Assembly: GCA_903847405.1 (NCBI GenBank)
Contig: CAINDP010000115.1
Span: forward strand, 1-64,000
DNA: 64,000 nt
Source: an uncultured Myxococcales bacterium
GTDB taxonomy: Bacteria; Myxococcota_A; UBA9042; DTJE01
Reading direction: 5' to 3'
The notes below the pieces were generated by a model that was given only the letters and a program-made list of their open reading frames with translations, was not told the origin of the DNA and searched no databases. Position numbers and translations under genes: made by a program. The number at the start of each line of letters is the position of its first letter. Position 1 is the first letter of the stretch. Positions 7,047 to 56,175 of the stretch are shown here, piece after piece.

Positions 7047-7406
7047 ATGGCGAACGACGGCACCGCCGTCATCGGCAAGGCAATCACCGTCCGCGGCGAA
7101 ATCGAAGGCCGGCAGGCTCTTCGCGTCGAAGGACTGGTCGAGGGCCATATCCGTCTGGAAGCGGAACTGGTGGTCGGCGAAGGCGGCACGGTCAAGGGCG
7201 AAGTGCATGTCGCCGTCCTGACGGTCGAGGGCCATTTCGATGGCACGGCCGCCTGCGACGAAATCGCGCACCTGATGCCCGGATGCGACGTCACGGGGAC
7301 GATCAGTTCGTCCCGCGTGGTCGTCGAGGACGGCGCGCTCTTCACGGGCACGCTGGACATGGACGTGGGATCGGAACCGATCCCGGGCGAGGCGCGTCAT
7401 GGGTGA
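7047..7406 (+). CDS. Bactofilin (first of three)
   Basis: A 119-residue polymer-forming cytoskeletal protein. The repeated short beta motif with Gly and hydrophobic residues (ITVRGEIEGRQALRVEGLVEGHI, then VGEGGTVKGEV) is the bactofilin right-handed beta-helix. Bactofilins form nucleotide-free filaments used for cell shape, chromosome positioning or wall-enzyme placement. This copy carries an unusual internal Cys (TAACDEIAHLMPGCDVTG). An ATG with a GGGAGGCTCC ribosome-binding site defines the start. Its end overlaps the next bactofilin by 8 bp. Confidence 0.9.
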   Translation: MANDGTAVIGKAITVRGEIEGRQALRVEGLVEGHIRLEAELVVGEGGTVKGEVHVAVLTVEGHFDGTAACDEIAHLMPGCDVTGTISSSRVVVEDGALFTGTLDMDVGSEPIPGEARHG

Positions 7407-7722
7407 AACGACAATCGGGCCGCGGACGCGGATCGAGGGTTCGGTGACCGGTCGCGACGTCCTGGTGGTCGAAGGCGAGATCCGGGGCACGGTGACCATG
7501 GAGGCACCCATCCGGATCGAGCGGGAAGGCCGCCTGGAAGCCGAAGTGCAGGGGCCGGAAGTGGCCATCGGCGGAACCGTGCAGGGGCACGTGATCGGCC
7601 TCAAGAAGGTCGAAATCCTGCCGGGTGCCAAGATGATCGGCGACGTGCGGACCCCCCGGATCCTGATTTCGGACGGGGCGGTGTTCCGCGGTCGCGTGGA
7701 CATGGACGTCGGGGAGGGTTGA
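7399..7722 (+). CDS. Bactofilin (second of three)
   Basis: A 107-residue minimal bactofilin consisting almost only of the beta-helical core (TRIEGSVTGRDVLVVEGEIRGTV, GTVQGHVIGLKKVEILPGAKMIGDV). Both N- and C-terminal tails are very short. The ATG lies inside the end of the upstream bactofilin, so the two are translationally coupled. The C-terminal FRGRVDMDVGEG resembles the FTGTLDMDVGSE end of the first copy, indicating tandem duplication. Confidence 0.9.
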   Translation: MGETTIGPRTRIEGSVTGRDVLVVEGEIRGTVTMEAPIRIEREGRLEAEVQGPEVAIGGTVQGHVIGLKKVEILPGAKMIGDVRTPRILISDGAVFRGRVDMDVGEG

Positions 7723-7725
7723 CCC

Positions 7726-8283
7726 ATGGCGGACGATCAGGGATCCCGCACGGAAATCGGCCCGGAGACGCTGGTCACGGGTGACGTTCGGGCCGACGAG
7801 GACATCGTCGTGTTCGGCCGCATCGACGGGACGGTGTCGTCCACGACGGCCGTGATCGTGGAAGACGGCGGCCGGGTCGGGTCGCGCATCGAGGCGCCGA
7901 CGGTCATCGTGGCCGGCTGGGCCTCCGGTGACGTGATCGGCACCGAGCGCGTCGAAATCACGGAAAGCGGCCGCGTGCTGGGCAACGTGTATGCCCCGCG
8001 GCTGGTCCTTCTGGAAGGTGGCGCCGTGAAGGGCCGCGTGGTGATGGACGGGTCCCGGCCCGATTCCGTCCAGGCGCCCGTACCGACGCGCACCGTGACG
8101 GCCCGTCCGGTTGCGTCCCAGCCCGGGACGGCGGCGCGACGGTCCGCGGCTCCGGCCTCGCGGACCGTTCGCGAGCCCGTGTCCGCGACCCGGGCCAAGG
8201 CCGCCGCAGCCCCGGCGCCGCGCGCCGCTGCGAATCCGGGCCTGCTGGATCTGGGCGACGACGGCGAACCCAAGGTGGATTGA
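7726..8283 (+). CDS. Bactofilin with Ala/Pro-rich C-terminal tail (third of three)
   Basis: A 185-residue bactofilin whose first ~110 residues form the beta-helical core (TLVTGDVRADEDIVVFGRIDGTV, GDVIGTERVEITESGRVLGNV). It differs from its neighbours by a roughly 75-residue basic, Ala/Pro-rich, probably disordered tail ending in LLDLGDDGEPKVD. Such tails in bactofilins usually recruit partner proteins. The start lies 3 bp after the previous stop, so the three copies form one operon and may co-polymerise; the tailed copy could be the adaptor subunit (inference). Confidence 0.9.
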   Translation: MADDQGSRTEIGPETLVTGDVRADEDIVVFGRIDGTVSSTTAVIVEDGGRVGSRIEAPTVIVAGWASGDVIGTERVEITESGRVLGNVYAPRLVLLEGGAVKGRVVMDGSRPDSVQAPVPTRTVTARPVASQPGTAARRSAAPASRTVREPVSATRAKAAAAPAPRAAANPGLLDLGDDGEPKVD

Positions 8284-8326
8284 TCCCTGGTCCTCGCCGG
8301 GGATGTCTTGACGGCAAGGTGCGACG

Positions 8327-9259
8327 ATGGGACGGCCCGGAACAGGCCTGCCGTTTTCGGTCGTCAACCCGCCGGTTCCCGACGGGCACTGGTTCGTCCC
8401 CACCCGCGACGGCACCCGCATCTACGTGGAGTCCTTCGGCGATCCGGCGGCGCCCCCCCTGGTGCTGTGCGACGGAATGGGCTGCAACGGTTCGTTTTTC
8501 GCCTACCTCGTCCCGTATTTCAGCCGGTTCATGCGGGTCATCCGGTGGAACTACCGCGCCCATGGGCAGTCGGAAATCCCCGATGACCCGTCCCGGATGA
8601 CCGTGGAAGACAGCATCCAGGACCTGTTCGAGGTGTGCGACGCCCTGGACATCCAGAAAGCGGTGTTCCTGGGCTACAGCATGGGCGTCGAGATCGTCCT
8701 GGATGCGGCCCACCGGGCCCCGCAGCGCATGATCGCGCAGATCCTGATGAACGGCTCGCCGGGGCGCCTGCCCGACACGTTCCACGGCAACACGATGGCC
8801 CGGTCGTTCCTGCCGTTCTTCTACGCCGCGGTGACCCGCTACACGGGGCCCGTGGCGCGGTTGTGGCACGCCGTCATCCCCACGCACCTGGCGTACCTGG
8901 TGTCCAGCATCAACGAATTCGACGGCCGACTGGTGCGGTGGCCCGACATGCGGCCGTACCTGGCGCATCTGGCGGCCATGGACCTGCAGGCGGGCGTCAA
9001 CATGCTGGCCAACGCGGCCGAGCACGACACGCGCCCCTTCCTGGGCCAGATCCGCGTTCCCAGCCTGGTGGTCGGCGCCTACCGGGACACCTTCGCCCCG
9101 TACTTCCTGTCCGAGGAAATGTACGAGGCCCTGGCCGACAGCGAACTGCTGGGCATCCGCGGCGCCACGCACTCGGCGCCCCTGGAGCAGCCCGACCTCG
9201 TCAACCTGGGCATCGAGGAGTACCTCGTCCGCCGCGGCTTCCTCGCCGCGAGGCCGTAA
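8327..9259 (+). CDS. Alpha/beta hydrolase
   Basis: A 310-residue alpha/beta-hydrolase-fold protein. It shows the nucleophile elbow GYSMG (Ser), an oxyanion region LVLCDGMGCNG, the strand RVIRWNYRAHGQSE and a C-terminal GATHSAP segment supplying the probable catalytic His; the acid is probably in VVGAYRDTFAP. There is no signal peptide. Substrate cannot be inferred. The ATG is preceded by AAGGTGCGACG and lies 43 bp after the third bactofilin, so it may share that transcript. Confidence 0.85.
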   Translation: MGRPGTGLPFSVVNPPVPDGHWFVPTRDGTRIYVESFGDPAAPPLVLCDGMGCNGSFFAYLVPYFSRFMRVIRWNYRAHGQSEIPDDPSRMTVEDSIQDLFEVCDALDIQKAVFLGYSMGVEIVLDAAHRAPQRMIAQILMNGSPGRLPDTFHGNTMARSFLPFFYAAVTRYTGPVARLWHAVIPTHLAYLVSSINEFDGRLVRWPDMRPYLAHLAAMDLQAGVNMLANAAEHDTRPFLGQIRVPSLVVGAYRDTFAPYFLSEEMYEALADSELLGIRGATHSAPLEQPDLVNLGIEEYLVRRGFLAARP

Positions 9260-9260
9260 G

Positions 9261-9394
9261 GCCGCAGCGCCGTACCCGTACCCGTCCCCGTACCCGTTCC
9301 TCCCCTTCGCCGATCTCCGCCCCCTTCAAGCACGGATTCGGGCCAGGACTCGGGTACGGGTACGGGCTCGGGTACGGGTACGAGAGGGCTGCGG
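9261..9394 (+). repeat. Inverted repeat of TACCCG hexamers between convergent genes
   Basis: The left arm (about 9262-9298) contains CCGCAGC followed by repeats of CCGTACCCGTACC; the right arm (about 9350-9394) contains CGGGTACGGG repeats and ends GCTGCGG. The arms can pair over about 35-40 bp around a 50-bp centre. It lies in the 153-bp gap between the convergent hydrolase and FHA genes and could act as a bidirectional terminator or be a mobile repeat. Confidence 0.75.
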
Positions 9395-9412
9395 CGTTCG
9401 GGGTAGGTTCGA

Positions 9413-10186
9413 TCAGGAAGCGACAGGCCGCTTGAACTGGAAGAGGTGGTGGCCGACCAGCACGAAATCGCCGTCCTCCAGGGCCACGCGGCCCTTGATC
9501 CGCAGGAAGCAGCCGTTCGTGCTGCCCAGGTCCTTCAGGACGCACCCGGCGCCCGAGGCCGCGAAGGATGCGTGGCGCGACGACACGAAGGGATCGTCCG
9601 GCAGCAGGATGTCGCCGCTGGTGCGGCCGAGGGTGGTTTCCGGCGAGCGCAGCAGGTACGCCTCGAGGATCGCGTCGTTCGGTCCCAGGCGCAGCAGCCG
9701 CCCGAACCAGTCGCCCGTGGTGCCGGCCGATCCCAGCCACGCAGCGCCGTCCGTGGAGGGCTGGGGCCGCGGAATCGCCAACTGGATCGCGAACAGGGCG
9801 TGCCCGATGCGGACCTGATCGCCGTCGGCGACGGTCCGCTGTCCCGTGACGCGCACGAAGGTGCCGTGGCGCGTCGCCAGGTCCTCCAGGAACACCACGT
9901 CGCGGCCCACGTCGATCGTCGCGTGCTCGTCGGCAACCCGCGGATCGTCGGCCACGATCACTTCCGGGCCGGTACGGCCCACGTGGTTCAGGCCGTCCAC
10001 CAGCGGGATTTCGGGACCCGTGCCGCCGTCCGTCCGGATCGTGACGAGGCTGCAGGTGCCCTTGCGGGCCGTCGATGCGTGTCGGGGCTTGAAGCCCTTC
10101 ATCGACTGCTCGAGGGGTTTGCCGCAGTTCAGGCAGTAGGTGAAAATCTCTTCGTTGTCGGTCCCGCAATGTACGCAGCGGATCAT
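9413..10186 (-). CDS. Zinc-ribbon protein with two FHA domains
   Basis: A 257-residue cytosolic protein. The N terminus carries a zinc ribbon (CVHCGTDNEEIFTYCLNCG). Two phosphothreonine-binding FHA domains follow: the first around NHVGRTGPEVIVADDPRVADEHA and the second around TTLGRTSGDILLPDDPFVSSRHASF with LGSTNGCF. The ATG at 10184-10186 has a strong CCGGAGGGG ribosome-binding site. It is divergent, by 107 bp, from a Ser/Thr kinase that also starts with a zinc ribbon, so it is a plausible reader of that kinase's phosphorylation. The degenerate SxxH of the first domain (ADEH) suggests altered specificity. Confidence 0.87.
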   Translation of the reverse strand: MIRCVHCGTDNEEIFTYCLNCGKPLEQSMKGFKPRHASTARKGTCSLVTIRTDGGTGPEIPLVDGLNHVGRTGPEVIVADDPRVADEHATIDVGRDVVFLEDLATRHGTFVRVTGQRTVADGDQVRIGHALFAIQLAIPRPQPSTDGAAWLGSAGTTGDWFGRLLRLGPNDAILEAYLLRSPETTLGRTSGDILLPDDPFVSSRHASFAASGAGCVLKDLGSTNGCFLRIKGRVALEDGDFVLVGHHLFQFKRPVAS

Positions 10187-10239
10187 TGCCCCCCTCCGGG
10201 TCCAGTCGGTGATGCAGTTGGGTCTGTACCTACCGGGCC

Positions 10240-10268
10240 TTGCGAATCCTACCATCGCACTCTAGAAT
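10240..10268 (+). promoter_or_regulatory. Candidate promoter of the Ser/Thr kinase gene
   Basis: TTGCGA (10240-10245), a 17-bp spacer and TAGAAT (10263-10268), with the kinase TTG start 26 bp downstream. The -10 sequence fits the TAGNNT form seen at other starts in this window. Confidence 0.55.
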
Positions 10269-10293
10269 CGTAAAGCCTTCACGGAGCCCCTTC

Positions 10294-11538
10294 TTGGCCG
10301 CCTGCCCGTCGTGTTTGAATGCGGCACCCGACGGAAGTCGTTTCTGCCCGTTCTGCGGGGGGAAACTGGCCGCGCTGGTCAAGAAGCCCGTGGATCCCCT
10401 GGTCGGAAAGGTCGTCGACAACAAGTACGTCATCCTGGAACGCATCGGCACCGGTGCGATGGGCAGCATCTACAAGGCCGAGCACCGCGCCCTGTCCAAG
10501 CAGATCGCCCTGAAGATCCTGCACCGGCACCTCCTGACGGAGGAAAGCCAGGTCAAGCGCTTCCACCGGGAGGCGAAGGCCGCGTCGCGGCTGAACCATC
10601 CCAACGCGATCGTGATGCTGGACTTCGGCCAGACCGAAGACGGGCTGTCGTACATCGCGATGGAATTCCTGCCGGGGAAGGACCTGTGCCGCGTCCTGTT
10701 CGAGGATGGCCGCCTTTCCGAGGACCGGATGGTCCGCATCGCCACGCAGATCCTGGACGCGCTGGACGAGGCGCACGCGGCGGGCGTGATCCACCGGGAC
10801 CTCAAGCCCGAAAACATCATGATCGAGCCGCTGCGCTCGAACCCCGATTTCGTGAAGGTGCTGGATTTCGGCATCGCCAAGATCCGCGACTACACGGGCG
10901 GGGAGAACTCGTCCTTCAAGACGGCCACGGGCATGGTGTTCGGCACCCCCGAATACATGTCGCCCGAACAGATTCGCGGCGAGGAGCTGGACGGTCGGTC
11001 GGACCTCTACTCCCTGGGCGTGCTGATGTACCAGATGGCCTCCGGCGAACTGCCCTTCACGGGGGATTCGGTGCTGGAGGTGGCAACGGCGCACCTGACG
11101 CAGCCGCCGATCCCCCTGGCCGAAAAGGTGCCGGGGATCACGCCCGGCGTGGCGGCCGTGATCGCCAGCCTGATGGCCAAGAAGCGCGACGATCGTCCGG
11201 CGAACGCAGGCGATGCCCGGAAGGCCCTCGTGGGCGCCTGGGAGGCTGCGGCGCGTGCGGTCGCCGAGCGGCGGTTCGAGGACGCCCGGAGCGCGGAATC
11301 CCGCTCCCAGGTTTCGTCCGAGGCCCGGACGCACCTGGTGCCGGCCGTTTCCGAGGTGCGCATGGGTCCCTCGACGCGGGCGCCGTCCCTGGCGCCGACC
11401 CGCGGGCCTGTCGCGTTCACGACCGAAGTCAGTTCGATGATCCGTCGCAGCATGACCTGGAAGATCGTGCTGTTCCTGGGCCTTGCTGCATTCTCCGTGG
11501 CTGCCCTGGTGGCCTGGGCGTGGATTCGGCATGGATAA
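10294..11538 (+). CDS. Membrane-tethered Ser/Thr protein kinase with N-terminal zinc ribbon
   Basis: A 414-residue Hanks-type kinase. A zinc ribbon (CPSC ... CPFCGGKL) precedes the catalytic domain: IGTGAMGSIYKAE (glycine loop), IALKIL (ATP lysine), HRDLKPEN near residue 167, DFGIAK near 191, and GTPEYMSPEQ. A ~100-residue variable linker leads to a single C-terminal transmembrane helix (ITWKIVLFLGLAAFSVAALVAW-like, about 387-409) with only a few residues beyond it. I chose the TTG at 10294 because GGAG precedes it and because it starts right at the zinc ribbon. The stop overlaps the CYTH start. There is no periplasmic sensor domain, so input is probably cytosolic. Confidence 0.9.
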   Translation: MAACPSCLNAAPDGSRFCPFCGGKLAALVKKPVDPLVGKVVDNKYVILERIGTGAMGSIYKAEHRALSKQIALKILHRHLLTEESQVKRFHREAKAASRLNHPNAIVMLDFGQTEDGLSYIAMEFLPGKDLCRVLFEDGRLSEDRMVRIATQILDALDEAHAAGVIHRDLKPENIMIEPLRSNPDFVKVLDFGIAKIRDYTGGENSSFKTATGMVFGTPEYMSPEQIRGEELDGRSDLYSLGVLMYQMASGELPFTGDSVLEVATAHLTQPPIPLAEKVPGITPGVAAVIASLMAKKRDDRPANAGDARKALVGAWEAAARAVAERRFEDARSAESRSQVSSEARTHLVPAVSEVRMGPSTRAPSLAPTRGPVAFTTEVSSMIRRSMTWKIVLFLGLAAFSVAALVAWAWIRHG

Positions 11539-49670: not shown

Positions 49671-51017
49671 CTACAGTTTACGATAGATGGTCCGGGTGGC
49701 GATGCCCAGCAACTGCGCGGCCAGCCGCTTGTTGCCGCGGGTCAGGCGCAGGGTCTGCTGGATCACCTGCTGCTCGATTTCGTCCAGGGGCGTGCCCAAC
49801 TGGATCGTCAGGTACTGCATGGCGCTGGCGTCGGACGCCACCAGGTCGGGCAGGTCCTCGGGGCGGATGGTGTCGCCCCGGCTCAGAACGACGGCGTGCT
49901 CGATGGTGTTTTCCAGTTCGCGGACGTTGCCCGGCCAGTCGTGGGCGATCAGCAGGTCCATGGCCTCGCGGGTGATCGTCCGCACTTCCTTCCGGTTCTT
50001 TTCCGCGAAGCGCGACAGGAAGTGCTGGGCCAGCAGCGGGATGTCGTCGCTGCGTTCGCGCAGGGCCGGCAGCGTCATCGAAATGACGTTCAGGCGATAG
50101 AACAGGTCCTCGCGGAAGCGCCCGGTGCGGGACATCTCCAGGAGGTTCTTGTTGGTGGAGGCCACGACGCGGACGTCCACGCGCAGGGTCTGGGTGCCGC
50201 CCAGGCGCTCGAACTCGCCCTCCTGCAGCACGCGCAGCAGTTTCGCCTGGATCATGGGATCCAGCTCCGCCACCTCGTCCAGGAACAGGGTGCCGCCGTC
50301 GGCCATCTTGAACCGGCCCTCGCGGCGGGCGAAGGCGCCGGTGAATGCGCCGCGCTCGTGGCCGAACAGTTCGGATTCCAGCAGCGTGACCGGGATGGCG
50401 GCGCAGTTGATCGCGACGAAGGGCCCGCGGTTGCGGCGGCTGCGGCGGTGGATGGCCCGGGCGACCAGTTCCTTGCCGGTTCCGGATTCGCCCATGATCA
50501 GCACGGTGGTGGAGGCCTGGGCGACCTGGGTGATCGTGTCCTGGACGCGGCGCATCGCGGCGGAGGTGCCCACCAGGCTGCGCTCGCCGGTGACCGCTTC
50601 CAGTTCCGCGCGCAGCGCCTGGTTTTCGGCCTTCAGGGAGGCCTTTTCGTAGGCGCGCGTCACGCTGCGGACGACCAGGGGGCGCTTGAGGGGCTTGGTG
50701 ACGAAGTCGTAGGCGCCTTCCCGCATGGCTTCCACGGCCCGCTCGATGGTCCCGAAGGCGGTCATGATGACCACCTCGGTGTCGGGGCGCAGGGCCTTGA
50801 CCGCCCGCAGCAGGTCCATGCCGTCCATGCCGGGCATGCGCAGGTCCGCCAGCACCACGCCGAAGTCCTCGCCGCGCAGGACCTCCAGGCCCTCCTCGCC
50901 CGAAGCGCCGGTGCGGACGTAGAACCCCTCGCGGTCGAAGATTTCGCGCAGGGATTCCACGGCGGCGCCGTCGTCGTCGACGACCAGGAGGCGGGGGCGG
51001 GGAGCATTGCTAGCCAT
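49671..51017 (-). CDS. Sigma-54-dependent NtrC-family response regulator
   Basis: A 448-residue regulator. The N-terminal receiver domain has RLLVVDDDG and the phospho-acceptor Asp in [13 protein letters not shown]. The central AAA+ domain has GESGTGKEL, the sigma-54 contact loop ERGAFTGAF and LFLDEVAEL. The C-terminal Fis-type helix-turn-helix includes [23 protein letters not shown]. All activation motifs are intact. No histidine kinase is adjacent, so it is an orphan regulator whose partner is elsewhere. No -24/-12 promoter was found by eye near it. Confidence 0.95.
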
Positions 51018-51735: not shown

Positions 51736-53580
51736 TCAATGCCCGCCGGAGCCCGAGGGTTTCGCGTTCCAGATGCGGGTCAGAAGCAGCAGGCCGATGA
51801 CGGCGAAGGGCGCCAGGAAGAGGGGCCAGTACCGCCAGTCCTGGGAGGTCAGGTAGCCCAGCGAGACGGACTGCACCGCGGTTCCCAGGTACACGAACCC
51901 GTCGATCATGCCGACCGCGGTCGCGGCGCCCTTCCGCCCCCCGAAGTCCATGGTCGCGGTGCCGGACAGCAGGCCGTGCGTGCCGATCACGCCCAGGGAC
52001 AGCAGGAACACGAAGAAGCCCAGGTACCAGGGGGGCAGGGTCAGTCGCGGGCCCGCCGACAGCGTGCGCTGGTCCCCGGCCTCGGCGGTGGGCATGGGAT
52101 CGTTCATGGCCAGCGCGATTTCGGTGCCGTCCCGTTGCACCACGAACCGGATGCCTCCGCGGGCCTCGGCGGCCGGGAGGACGGTCGCGGGCTCGACCGG
52201 CTCGCGGGTGCACAGGCAGCGCCGCAGGTCCCACACGACCCCGTCGCCCTTGCACACGGACGGCATGCACTGGACGGCGCGGGACACGGCGGCCCAGGTG
52301 TCGTCGGCCTGCAGCGGGACTCCGTTGACGGAAATGATCTGGTCGCCGGGCTTCAGCGGGACCTTCCGGTCATCGGCCCAGCCCACGACGGCCGGACGCT
52401 GGCCCAGGGTCGGCAGCATGCCCAGCGTGCAGACGAAGACCAGGATGTACAGGAAGCCCGCGGCCGGGGCGCGGCGGCTCTGGAACAGCCAGTCGCTGAT
52501 GTGTCCCGCGACGTTGGCGCCGATGACGCCCGCCACGAACAGCCATCCGCCCCAGCCGGCCTGCAGGAAGGGCAGCAGGGTCACGATGGCGCCCACCGAC
52601 ACCAGGGCGACGCGCGTGCGGCCCTTGGTCCGGCTGGCGATGAGGAACAGGACGATGCCGATGCACAGGGCGCCGACGATGAAGGGCCAGTACTCCCACG
52701 AACCGTTGCGCAGGGGGTGGCTGGCGGGCAGGACCCAGTATTCCTTCGCGAAGATCGGGAACCAGTGCATGACGCCGTTGCGCAGGACGCCCGTGCAGAA
52801 CTCGACGAAGGCGATCGTCAGGATGATCGGGTTCGTCAGGACGCGCTTGACGATCTGCGAAAGGGGGATGTCGCCCACGCCGGACGAGGCGTCGCCGGTG
52901 TCGAAGTCCTGGTGGCCGGCCTGGCCCGGGCGGTCGCGCAGCAGGAAGAACTCGACGACGGCCATGATCAGCAGCAGCCCGGCCGGGAAGAAGAACACCC
53001 ACCAGGACGACATCGTGCCCGCGGGGCCCCAGGTGCTGGTCCAGGCCAGCACCCACTCGTTGACGCTGAAGGCGAAAAAGACGCCGGACGAGATCATCGT
53101 GCCGAAGATGCCCGAAAAACTGCCGCGCTCGCGGACGTGGAACCACGACGAATTGACCTTGACGATGGCGACGGCCGCCGCGCTCTGGAAGTACATGTTG
53201 ATCGCGTACAGCACGGACATCGTCGCGACCAGGTCGAAGGGTAGGGCGCCCGGCGACAGGATCATCGAGCGGATGTACCCGCCCATGAGGAGGTTCGCGA
53301 TGCCCGCGCCGATGGCGGCCGCCAGGATCGCCTTCTTGCCCCCGACCTTGTCCGTGACGGGGCCGTTGACCAGGAAGGAAATGGCGTAGACCAGCGTCCC
53401 GATTCCGAAGATCAGGCCGAAGTCCTCCTTGTTCATCAGGTCGCCCAGGGCGTTCTTGGCCACCGTCAGGTTGTAGCGGCCCATGTAAAGGAAGGCGTAC
53501 GTCAGGCCCATCGGGAACCAGTTCAGGAAGCGGCGGTGGCGGAAGGACGTCGAGTGCACCGGGGCTGAATCCAGGACCAT
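51736..53580 (-). CDS. OPA-family MFS transporter with inserted PDZ-like domain
   Basis: A 614-residue membrane protein. The N-terminal half (NWFPMGLTYAFLYMGRYNL, then LVNGPVTDKVGGKKAILA) follows the organophosphate:phosphate antiporter (GlpT/UhpT) pattern. It differs from a 12-helix OPA protein in two ways: two additional helices (about residues 295-340), and a ~120-residue soluble insertion (about 385-505) with KPGDQIISVNGVPLQADDTWAAV, the core of a PDZ domain, plus three to four Cys. By topology the insertion would be periplasmic. It lies 15 bp after an exported TPR-like gene, in an operon with a secreted phosphoesterase, suggesting uptake of a phosphoester or phosphate. Confidence 0.82.
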   Translation of the reverse strand: MVLDSAPVHSTSFRHRRFLNWFPMGLTYAFLYMGRYNLTVAKNALGDLMNKEDFGLIFGIGTLVYAISFLVNGPVTDKVGGKKAILAAAIGAGIANLLMGGYIRSMILSPGALPFDLVATMSVLYAINMYFQSAAAVAIVKVNSSWFHVRERGSFSGIFGTMISSGVFFAFSVNEWVLAWTSTWGPAGTMSSWWVFFFPAGLLLIMAVVEFFLLRDRPGQAGHQDFDTGDASSGVGDIPLSQIVKRVLTNPIILTIAFVEFCTGVLRNGVMHWFPIFAKEYWVLPASHPLRNGSWEYWPFIVGALCIGIVLFLIASRTKGRTRVALVSVGAIVTLLPFLQAGWGGWLFVAGVIGANVAGHISDWLFQSRRAPAAGFLYILVFVCTLGMLPTLGQRPAVVGWADDRKVPLKPGDQIISVNGVPLQADDTWAAVSRAVQCMPSVCKGDGVVWDLRRCLCTREPVEPATVLPAAEARGGIRFVVQRDGTEIALAMNDPMPTAEAGDQRTLSAGPRLTLPPWYLGFFVFLLSLGVIGTHGLLSGTATMDFGGRKGAATAVGMIDGFVYLGTAVQSVSLGYLTSQDWRYWPLFLAPFAVIGLLLLTRIWNAKPSGSGGH

Positions 53581-53595
53581 CGTTTCCTCCTCGGG

Positions 53596-54183
53596 CTACT
53601 TCGGAGCGGGTTCGAAGCCGCCGGATCGCTGGGCGGGGGCCGTTGGGTCCAGTCCCTGCGAGGGGTTGCCGTACCGGCGCCAGGCGCCCAGGACGGTGTC
53701 GCGTGCTTCCGGGGTGGTCGCCACGCTCCAGGCGCGCCGGAGGGCGGCCCGGCCCTCGTCCGGTCGCGCATGTTCCAGCCAGTAGCCGCCCACGGCGACC
53801 CAGCGGTTCGGATCCTCGGGGTGGGCCAGGGCTTCGTCGTGGAGGCGTTCCCCGGGATCCTTGCGGCCGTCCGGCCGTGGAACGCCGGCGTCGCGGGGCA
53901 GGGGCGGAGTTTCGGTCGACGAGGGCGCCATCCGAGGCACCTGCGGGGGGACCGGCGGGGCGCCGGATGGCGACGAGCGCGGCGCGACGACGGCGGGACG
54001 CGGGCCGAAGGCGGCGGGGGGCGGGACGGCCGCGACCGGCGGGGCCTGGAGGGGTTCGAGGTCCCCGGGACCGGGGATCGACGGGAAACCGCCCGGATTG
54101 GTGAAATGCAACCAGGTTCCCACGCCGACGGCGACCGCCAGGCCCAGGAGGCCCGCGGCCAGTGCCCTGGTGCGGTGTTTCAT
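53596..54183 (-). CDS. Exported Pro-rich protein with C-terminal helical repeat
   Basis: A 195-residue protein with an N-terminal membrane helix (ALAAGLLGLAVAVGVGTWL), a ~85-residue Ala/Pro linker, and a C-terminal helical region (HDEALAHPEDPNRWVAVGGYWLEHARPDEGRAALRRAW) resembling one or two TPR hairpins. No enzyme motif is seen. Its ATG overlaps the end of the phosphoesterase gene (4 bp), so it is translated with it; a scaffold role between the phosphoesterase and the OPA transporter is possible. Confidence 0.7.
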   Translation of the reverse strand: MKHRTRALAAGLLGLAVAVGVGTWLHFTNPGGFPSIPGPGDLEPLQAPPVAAVPPPAAFGPRPAVVAPRSSPSGAPPVPPQVPRMAPSSTETPPLPRDAGVPRPDGRKDPGERLHDEALAHPEDPNRWVAVGGYWLEHARPDEGRAALRRAWSVATTPEARDTVLGAWRRYGNPSQGLDPTAPAQRSGGFEPAPK

Positions 54184-55916
54184 GGGCGGCCGGTCCGGCG
54201 ACCGGCCGGCCGGGCGGCCAGTGCGGCCAATGCGACCAGGAACGGCAGCAGGAAACCGGCCGGAACGGGCGACCGGGCACCCGCGGAACAGCCGCCGCCC
54301 TTCGCGCCGGCGACACAGGCGCCGTCGGTGCACGTCATGCCCCGATCGGCGCAGGATTCCACGGTCGTCCAGGTCCGGGCGTCGGCCGCGCACTGAACGA
54401 GGGCCGCGCCGTCGCACCGGGTGGCGCCGACGACGCACAAGCCCGTCGGTGCGTCCGGGGAGGTTTCGAGGGTTGCGTCCTCCCGGGCCGGGGGAACGTC
54501 GCCGTCGTCCGCGCCGGGCGCCTGATCGGGGAGGGACGCCATTTCGGCCTGGGTGTCGGTCTGGATCGCAGGCACGTCCTCCGCGGGAACGTCGGGCGCC
54601 GCGTCCGGGATGGTCGCGACGTCGGAGGTGTCCGGGTCGTCCGGCGGGACCGCCGGGTGGGCGGCCTCGTCCTCGCCGGCCGGGGAGGCGCATCCCGGGT
54701 CGTCCGGCCAGTCGGTCCGTCCGTCGACGTCGTCGTCGATGCCGTTGCTGCAGGCGGTGGCGCCCACGCGGAACGCGGTTTCGTGGTCGTTCCGGTTCCA
54801 CGGGGAGGCCTGGACCCGCAGGGTATGCGTGCCGGCGGCCATGCCGGTGCTGTCGAAGGTCGCGGCCCAGACGTGGGGCTGGGCTTCGGCCATGGGGGTC
54901 CAGGCGCCGCCGTCGACCTGGAAGCGGACCGCGTCGGGAGCCTTGTCGCCGAACACCAGGGCGCGGACCGGGCACTGCGTCCAGTTGGCCGGGACGTTGG
55001 TGGCGCGCGGGTTGCCGCCTCCCAGGTTCACGTCCACCGGGGCCGTCGTCACCACGTAGGGCCAGGTCGCCGCCGCGAACACCCGTGCCGACAGCGCCCC
55101 TGCGTCCACGGCCAGCAGCGCGACGTGGTCCTGGTCGGACTTGCCCAGGCTGTCGAGGTTCAGGTGCAGCGTCCGGCCCCGGTACTCCGAAGCGAACGCG
55201 TGGGTGTGGCCGTAGACGTACGCGTCCACGTCGAAGGCCTCCAGCAGGGCCTTGAACTCGGCCTTGCCGCCTTCGATCGAATTGCCGATGTCGCGGTCCA
55301 CCGGGTGGTGGCCGAAGGCCAGGCGGACCGTCGCGTCGGCGTTGTCGTCGAAGGCCTTCTGCAGGAACGCCAGTTCCCCCGCGTCGAGGGTGGCGTTGTC
55401 CGCCAGGACGCCGCCGCCGTCGCTGGCCGGGGTCGACGTCGTCAGCAGGTGCACGCTGCCGGCCGGCCCGTCGCGGCGGATCGAATGCTGGGTCTGGTGG
55501 TCGGCGCTGCCCTGGATCGAATACTGGAGGTAGTGCGGCATGCCCTTGTCGGCGTACTGGTCGTGGTTCCCAGGCAGGTCCACGTAGGTGTCCGGCGTCA
55601 CCCCGCCGTCGTCCAGGATCGCGCGGTACTTCGTCCACTCCTCCTCCTGCTGACCGGTCGGGATCGGCAGCAGGCCCGTGGCGTCGGTCAGATCGCCGCA
55701 GTTGAGGATCAGCGTGGGCTGGATCGACTGGGCACCTTCCCGGGTCAGCCACGCCAGGTTTTCGTTCGCGCGGTCACCGGAAGACCCGATGTGCGAGTCC
55801 GAAACCACGACGAACCAGTCGATCCGCGAGGCGTCCGGCGCGTATTCGGCGGACGCGGGGAAGGCGGGCAGGAGCGTGGCGAGTACGACGATGGCGAAGG
55901 CGGCGTGGCGCAACAT
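54180..55916 (-). CDS. Secreted metallophosphoesterase with MYXO-CTERM-like tail
   Basis: A 578-residue exported protein. After a signal peptide (cleavage near PASAEY), the calcineurin-like domain shows VVVSDSHIG, LILNCGDLTD, LPGNHDQYA, AFGHHPVD and VYGHTHAF, the complete five-motif set for a two-metal phosphoesterase. A beta domain and a CSNGIDDDVDGRTDWPDDPGC motif (common in myxobacterial surface proteins) follow, then an acidic Asp/Pro linker, four more Cys and a tail with GGGCSAGA, a hydrophobic helix and a final Arg cluster, as in MYXO-CTERM sorting signals. The ATG is at 55914-55916. It heads the operon with the TPR-like protein and the OPA transporter. Confidence 0.86.
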   Translation of the reverse strand: MLRHAAFAIVVLATLLPAFPASAEYAPDASRIDWFVVVSDSHIGSSGDRANENLAWLTREGAQSIQPTLILNCGDLTDATGLLPIPTGQQEEEWTKYRAILDDGGVTPDTYVDLPGNHDQYADKGMPHYLQYSIQGSADHQTQHSIRRDGPAGSVHLLTTSTPASDGGGVLADNATLDAGELAFLQKAFDDNADATVRLAFGHHPVDRDIGNSIEGGKAEFKALLEAFDVDAYVYGHTHAFASEYRGRTLHLNLDSLGKSDQDHVALLAVDAGALSARVFAAATWPYVVTTAPVDVNLGGGNPRATNVPANWTQCPVRALVFGDKAPDAVRFQVDGGAWTPMAEAQPHVWAATFDSTGMAAGTHTLRVQASPWNRNDHETAFRVGATACSNGIDDDVDGRTDWPDDPGCASPAGEDEAAHPAVPPDDPDTSDVATIPDAAPDVPAEDVPAIQTDTQAEMASLPDQAPGADDGDVPPAREDATLETSPDAPTGLCVVGATRCDGAALVQCAADARTWTTVESCADRGMTCTDGACVAGAKGGGCSAGARSPVPAGFLLPFLVALAALAARPAGRRTGRP

Positions 55917-56045
55917 TCGGAGGTCCTCCCGAGGTCCTGCGACGGCGATGATAGCGCAAATCCCGGGCGGCGTTCCCGTGTCCGTTCCGGGGGGAACGGC
56001 GGGTCGAAAATTCAGTGGAAATGCAGCGGAATCCAGGCGCCTGCG

Positions 56046-56074
56046 TTGACAATCCGGAGGGGGGCGCAGAAAAT
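56046..56074 (+). promoter_or_regulatory. Candidate promoter of small lipoprotein genes
   Basis: TTGACA (56046-56051), a 17-bp spacer and GAAAAT (56069-56074), about 100 bp before the lipoprotein ATG at 56176. The -35 is a perfect consensus. Confidence 0.5.
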
Positions 56075-56175
56075 TGGCACACCTGAAGAAGGGGCCGCGG
56101 CAGGAATCCGGCGGCGTCCGGGTGCCCATCGGGCCCCGAATCGGTGTTCAAGGCTACAGCGTGGAGGTGTTTGTG

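Follow-up and report, generated by a model that had tools for sequence, protein, structure and literature searches.

Extracytoplasmic domains within MFS transporters are, to our knowledge, rare. In a 12-helix MFS protein, the fifth extracellular loop (ECL5) corresponds to the loop between TM9 and TM10. In OATP/SLCO transporters, the best-known case, this loop is the largest extracellular one and holds a Cys-rich, Kazal-like domain above the C-terminal bundle, the function of which is unknown (PMC10507018). An RK motif in TM1 is described as a hallmark of OPA transporters (i.e. GlpT, UhpT, PgtP and SLC37), and residues R28 and Y60 of G6PT, which contact the phosphate, are conserved in OPA (PMC13046256). 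Periplasmic PDZ domains located between membrane helices are found in RseP, MucP and Aquifex aq_1964. The PDZ tandem of RseP works as a size filter (PMC7728848). A survey of 7,852 microbial PDZ proteins found that most of them are proteases and mentioned no transporter (PMC6411480). Our own literature search retrieved no relevant paper on a PDZ domain in an MFS transporter. The initial annotation knew of no standard OPA member with the layout described below, which is consistent with both the survey and our search, although such an absence is not proof.

In this work, we analysed a window of 64,000 nucleotides (contig CAINDP010000115.1, positions 1 to 64,000) and found in it a transporter carrying a PDZ domain, which is real, widespread among Myxococcota relatives and, as far as we could find, not previously described. 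We hold with high confidence that its architecture combines an OPA-like core, a periplasmic PDZ domain and two extra helices. The gene and its parts are as follows, each with the evidence on which it was assigned.

51736..53580, minus strand: transporter gene, 614 aa, whole (ORF, Pfam, predicted structure)
53586..53591, minus strand: AGGAGG ribosome-binding site, 4 nt before the ATG (sequence)
52942..53550, minus strand: N-terminal bundle TM1-TM6, residues 11-213, with R35 and Y65 (model, hydropathy, profile alignment)
52768..52830, minus strand: TM7, residues 251-271, with R267 (profile alignment)
52633..52689, minus strand: extra helix X1, residues 298-316, predicted transmembrane (model, hydropathy)
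52558..52620, minus strand: extra helix X2, residues 321-341, predicted transmembrane (model, hydropathy)
52486..52554, minus strand: TM8, residues 343-365 (model, hydropathy)
52414..52473, minus strand: TM9, residues 370-389 (model, hydropathy)
52039..52410, minus strand: periplasmic insert, RseP/S2P-type PDZ domain, residues 391-514 (Pfam, profile, predicted fold, homology to the tandem form)
52210..52269, minus strand: Cys-rich hairpin after helix alpha-B, splitting the PDZ domain (C438, C443, C455 and C457, in 32/32 sequences)
51769..52032, minus strand: TM10-TM12, residues 517-604, TM10 at about 517-541 (model, hydropathy)

The codon-position GC of the 51736-53580 frame (0.62/0.48/0.95), together with the AGGAGG site, identifies it as the real gene among overlapping high-GC frames, and the alignment of homologues to the 614-aa protein begins at residue ~5. 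An artefact of a single contig, or a frameshift, was ruled out by the homologue alignments and by the matches in 35 Myxococcota genomes. The coordinates, the loop, the motif and the number of helices proposed in the initial annotation were all correct.

As regards the core, Pfam MFS_1 matched the 614-aa protein at 2.6e-20, and the NCBIfam models for PgtP, GlpT and UhpT matched as well, all below their cut-offs (105 bits for the best vs 407.75, the rest lower). When a core profile built from 39 relatives was compared with PDB chains, GlpT (1pw4, 8.7e-28) was the closest solved relative by sequence, with a GlpT/SLC37-type chain from rice (6e-18) and SLC37A2 (4.5e-11) as further matches. The full-length structure predicted by AlphaFold2 from 39 sequences reached a pLDDT of 85.6 and a pTM of 0.85, and its top Foldseek matches were SLC37A2, G6PT and GlpT. 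The protein is therefore like OPA members in its best sequence and fold matches, as well as in keeping the phosphate-binding arginines and the tyrosine of TM2: R35, Y65 and R267 were retained in 79/79 sequences, R35 and R267 being the equivalents of GlpT R45 and R269 in the profile alignment. It is unlike them in its PDZ domain (TM9-TM10 loop), its two helices between TM7 and TM8, and its TM1, where R35-Y36 replaces the RK motif in all 79 sequences. In the absence of this motif we name it OPA-like, i.e. belonging to a neighbouring subfamily rather than being a standard OPA member. Additionally, GlpT K46, K80 and D274 are replaced by Y36, F69 and H272, so that substrate and coupling may differ from those of known OPA members. 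The substrate is probably anionic, and we consider it likely that the protein moves such a solute.

The PDZ assignment of the insert between TM9 and TM10 was examined by sequence and by predicted fold. Pfam PDZ matched the insert alone at 5.5e-4, under the gathering score, at residues 402-424. An insert profile, resting like the insert model on nine inserts, matched a site-2-protease PDZ first among PDB chains (2.1e-6), with RseP at 0.014, and its 39 PDB matches to E=1 were all PDZ-bearing chains save an entry named only 'H10' (E=0.65). Modelled alone, the insert had a pLDDT of 81. The top 17 Foldseek matches of this model were site-2-protease-type PDZ chains, with E-values of only 8.4e-3 to 0.12, and VIA aligned it with MucP PDZ1 at Z 9.3 (rmsd 2.3, 86 residues). 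In the full model the last PDZ strand is short (E509-511). By sequence and predicted fold, the closest PDZ type is thus that of RseP, MucP and Aquifex aq_1964, which also lies in the periplasm between membrane helices; unlike in RseP/S2P, the host is a transporter and no protease, a four-Cys hairpin lies within the domain, and the 614-aa form has a single PDZ where RseP has a tandem. The OPA-type core and the PDZ fold anticipated in the initial annotation were both borne out by these comparisons, and the four-cysteine hairpin is a feature that it had missed.

In 32 aligned sequences, two of which (L006 and L095) apparently come from one genome taken twice, W429, W450, D413, R483, D494 and R505 were invariant along with the four cysteines. 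C438, C443, C455 and C457 would most obviously form two disulfides, as suits a periplasmic domain, a metal site being the alternative. As the hairpin lies within a PDZ domain that itself scores under the Pfam cut-off, the binding groove may be altered. The linkers flanking the domain are short (about 8 and 5 residues), and the linker motif AGDxRxL...P beside TM10 is invariant. When the insert profile was searched in 33 genomes for a donor protein with a four-Cys PDZ, solely the transporter itself was found. In the closest relative (L004:2500-2970), the Cys hairpin is separated from the last PDZ strands by an extra Pro-rich stretch of ~30 residues.

The two helices X1 and X2 sit between TM7 and TM8, with pLDDT values of ~90-96, and their hydropathy peaks at 2.39 and 1.96. 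They co-occurred with the four-Cys PDZ in 32/32 sequences and were absent from every form lacking it. The connector between them carries a mean net charge of +3.8, with at least three Lys/Arg in each sequence; it should therefore face the cytoplasm, which leaves the PDZ loop periplasmic. The invariance of the cysteines, in agreement with an oxidising compartment, supports the same side. We infer that the PDZ domain is periplasmic and is supported by the X1-X2 hairpin, which enters the membrane from the periplasmic side and crosses it. The initial annotation had likewise proposed two additional helices and a periplasmic insert; the model and the hydropathy agree with the former, the connector charge and the cysteines with the latter.

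Full-length matches were found in 35 of the 377 Myxococcota genomes, belonging to 10 families, so that the insertion is conserved and not unique to this contig. The long form was deduced in these 35 genomes from a continuous match, and the best 30 of the 35 were taken as loci; PDZ and X1-X2 were both present in all aligned loci. Relatives of ~450 aa consisting of the core only, i.e. without PDZ or X1-X2, occur in Myxococcota, Ignavibacteria, Krumholzibacteria, Verrucomicrobia and others. In the phylum of one relative, L014 (Ignavibacteria/Bacteroidota), two of 296 genomes matched at E<=1e-85, one with a protein of normal length and one with a 780-aa frame. Among plasmids, no match covered 80% of the query.

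A core-only tree of 79 sequences, 45 of them without insert, grouped the 32 sequences with PDZ and X1-X2 into one clade (0.97), the sister of which, L015, has no insert. The next branch, weakly supported (0.12 for the deeper node), is the tandem form, seen in two genomes (L071 and L072). Both sequences exceed the Pfam PDZ cut-off of 27 bits (55.6 and 37.3); they have no X1-X2, and the start of their insert, next to TM9, is homologous to the single-PDZ insert (hhalign E 5.3e-7). The insert may have been gained once and lost in L015, or gained twice; the homology of single and tandem inserts favours one gain.

Eight KSB1 relatives (L012:6001-7695 and L153-L159), of the same transporter subfamily, carry a domain of ~110 aa at exactly the same TM9-TM10 site, with the motif VKxGMxLxxQPxQIAKF...RFNKYKNKxE and without X1-X2. 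This domain matched no PDB sequence and had no consistent Pfam match, and it was rejected as a diverged PDZ because it did not resemble the PDZ insert (hhalign E 0.38). By these comparisons, it was inserted independently at that site and is unrelated to PDZ. In a single bacterial subfamily, one and the same loop thus holds no insert, one PDZ, two PDZs or an unrelated domain, and comparing those forms would make testable what an outer-side domain does for an MFS transporter. Outside this subfamily, OATP/SLCO proteins are similar in being MFS transporters with a Cys-rich extracytoplasmic domain in ECL5, above the C-terminal bundle, but that domain is Kazal-like and not PDZ, its hosts are eukaryotic and X1-X2 are lacking; the likeness is one of layout only.

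The PDZ domain and the extra helices on the outer side suggest a transporter docked to, or gated by, something periplasmic. The protein would be a secondary transporter of the inner membrane, from an OPA/SLC37-like subfamily, and its 12-helix core would exchange an anionic, probably phosphorylated solute by a rocker-switch (alternating-access) mechanism. The Myxococcota form would have gained an RseP-type PDZ, fixed on the C-terminal bundle by short linkers, with X1-X2 as the membrane support of this rigidly mounted domain. The PDZ could then act as a periplasmic interaction module, recruiting or positioning at the transporter mouth either a partner or a ligand bearing a peptide, and this docking could localise or gate transport. 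The initial annotation had already suggested that a periplasmic partner could dock there, which we find plausible. The whole of this explanation, including docking as the role of the PDZ, is put forward tentatively, as the reading we prefer with somewhat less than even confidence. A broader version, in which transport would be coupled to periplasmic protein recognition throughout the phylum, the stapled PDZ acting through X1-X2 and the KSB1 form being an equivalent with an unrelated domain, seems to us unlikely. If it were true, a disulfide-stapled PDZ would bind a partner or a C-terminus, and the X1-X2 hairpin would then change the state of the transporter.

A close rival to docking is that the PDZ acts as a cap, structural or gating, and has no protein ligand; stapled by disulfides and rigid on the C-terminal bundle, it would shield the mouth or select substrates by size. 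The short linkers and the pTM of the full model speak for such a cap, as do the invariant linker motif beside TM10 and the occupation of the same position by the unrelated KSB1 domain. Known systems point the same way, since the OATP Kazal-like domain is also Cys-rich and placed above the C-terminal bundle (PMC10507018) and the RseP tandem filters by size (PMC7728848). The 45 of 79 tree sequences devoid of insert nevertheless indicate that it is not needed for transport. We regard the cap as a real possibility, ranking below docking, the other explanations being less likely than either.

The protein could also be a sensor, instead of or besides a transporter, comparable to the OPA-family receptor UhpC, in which the PDZ would sense a peptide or protein and the core would signal. 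UhpC is indeed among the weak NCBIfam matches, and an NtrC-type regulator (49674-51017) is encoded 0.7 kb downstream; however, this regulator is not conserved as a neighbour, no histidine kinase neighbour was seen, and both arginines and all core motifs are retained, which makes a sensor improbable.

Docking was further considered in the light of the genes upstream of the transporter.

53596..54183, minus strand: small protein, 195 aa, with a single N-terminal hydrophobic segment and a Pro-rich middle (locus comparison)
54180..56129, minus strand: secreted calcineurin-like metallophosphoesterase, upstream neighbour (Pfam, locus comparison)

The true start of the metallophosphoesterase is probably downstream of the ORF start. 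The 195-aa protein had no Pfam match; a clear homologue was found at the same position in L004 and similar-looking proteins in L078 and L082. That the PDZ docks this phosphoesterase, phosphate esters being trimmed and imported together, is an idea drawn from five genomes of the source contig's family, in which the metallophosphoesterase gene lies upstream of the transporter, directly or one gene away (a small membrane protein stands between the two in three of the five). Against it, no homologue was found in four tested genomes outside the family (G017, G110, G124 and G036), and the two genes can be found separately within the genus: G001 has the transporter without the metallophosphoesterase, and G002 the reverse, with no transporter match at E<=1e-70. 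This distribution rules out the metallophosphoesterase as a general partner, as it is limited to one family and dispensable there, and its docking is very improbable. More generally, no conserved partner gene or operon was found beyond the source contig's family, the neighbours differing between families. The metallophosphoesterase (54180-56129, minus strand) shows a weak match to an acidic double-disulfide repeat, and it ends in a hydrophobic Gly-Gly-Gly-Cys C-terminal tail resembling a surface-sorting signal.

The mean column identity of the insert was 0.54 vs 0.74-0.88 for the core, and over seven pairs dN/dS ranged from 0.14 to 0.60 in the PDZ and from 0 to 0.46 in X1-X2, against 0.05-0.17 in the core; as judged from these ratios, the PDZ is under constraint, looser than that on the core. 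A decaying, functionless passenger, to which the lower identity, the one pair at 0.60 and the stretch of variable length that separates the hairpin from the last two strands might point, is hardly credible given dN/dS values well below 1 and four Cys, two Trp, Asp, Arg and the AGDxR motif that are invariant or nearly so across families.

Finally, minor observations were made on the surroundings of related genes. At eight loci of two Myxococcota families (L006, L084, L085, L123, L128, L129, L130 and L131), a gene next to or near that of the transporter encodes an uncharacterised protein of ~480-580 aa, which probably has a central membrane segment. Two different OPA-like transporters lie side by side or close together in a Verrucomicrobia locus (L044:5842-7314 and 7369-8976), and two different ones near each other in an Ignavibacteria locus (L058:5941-7338 and 9234-10742).
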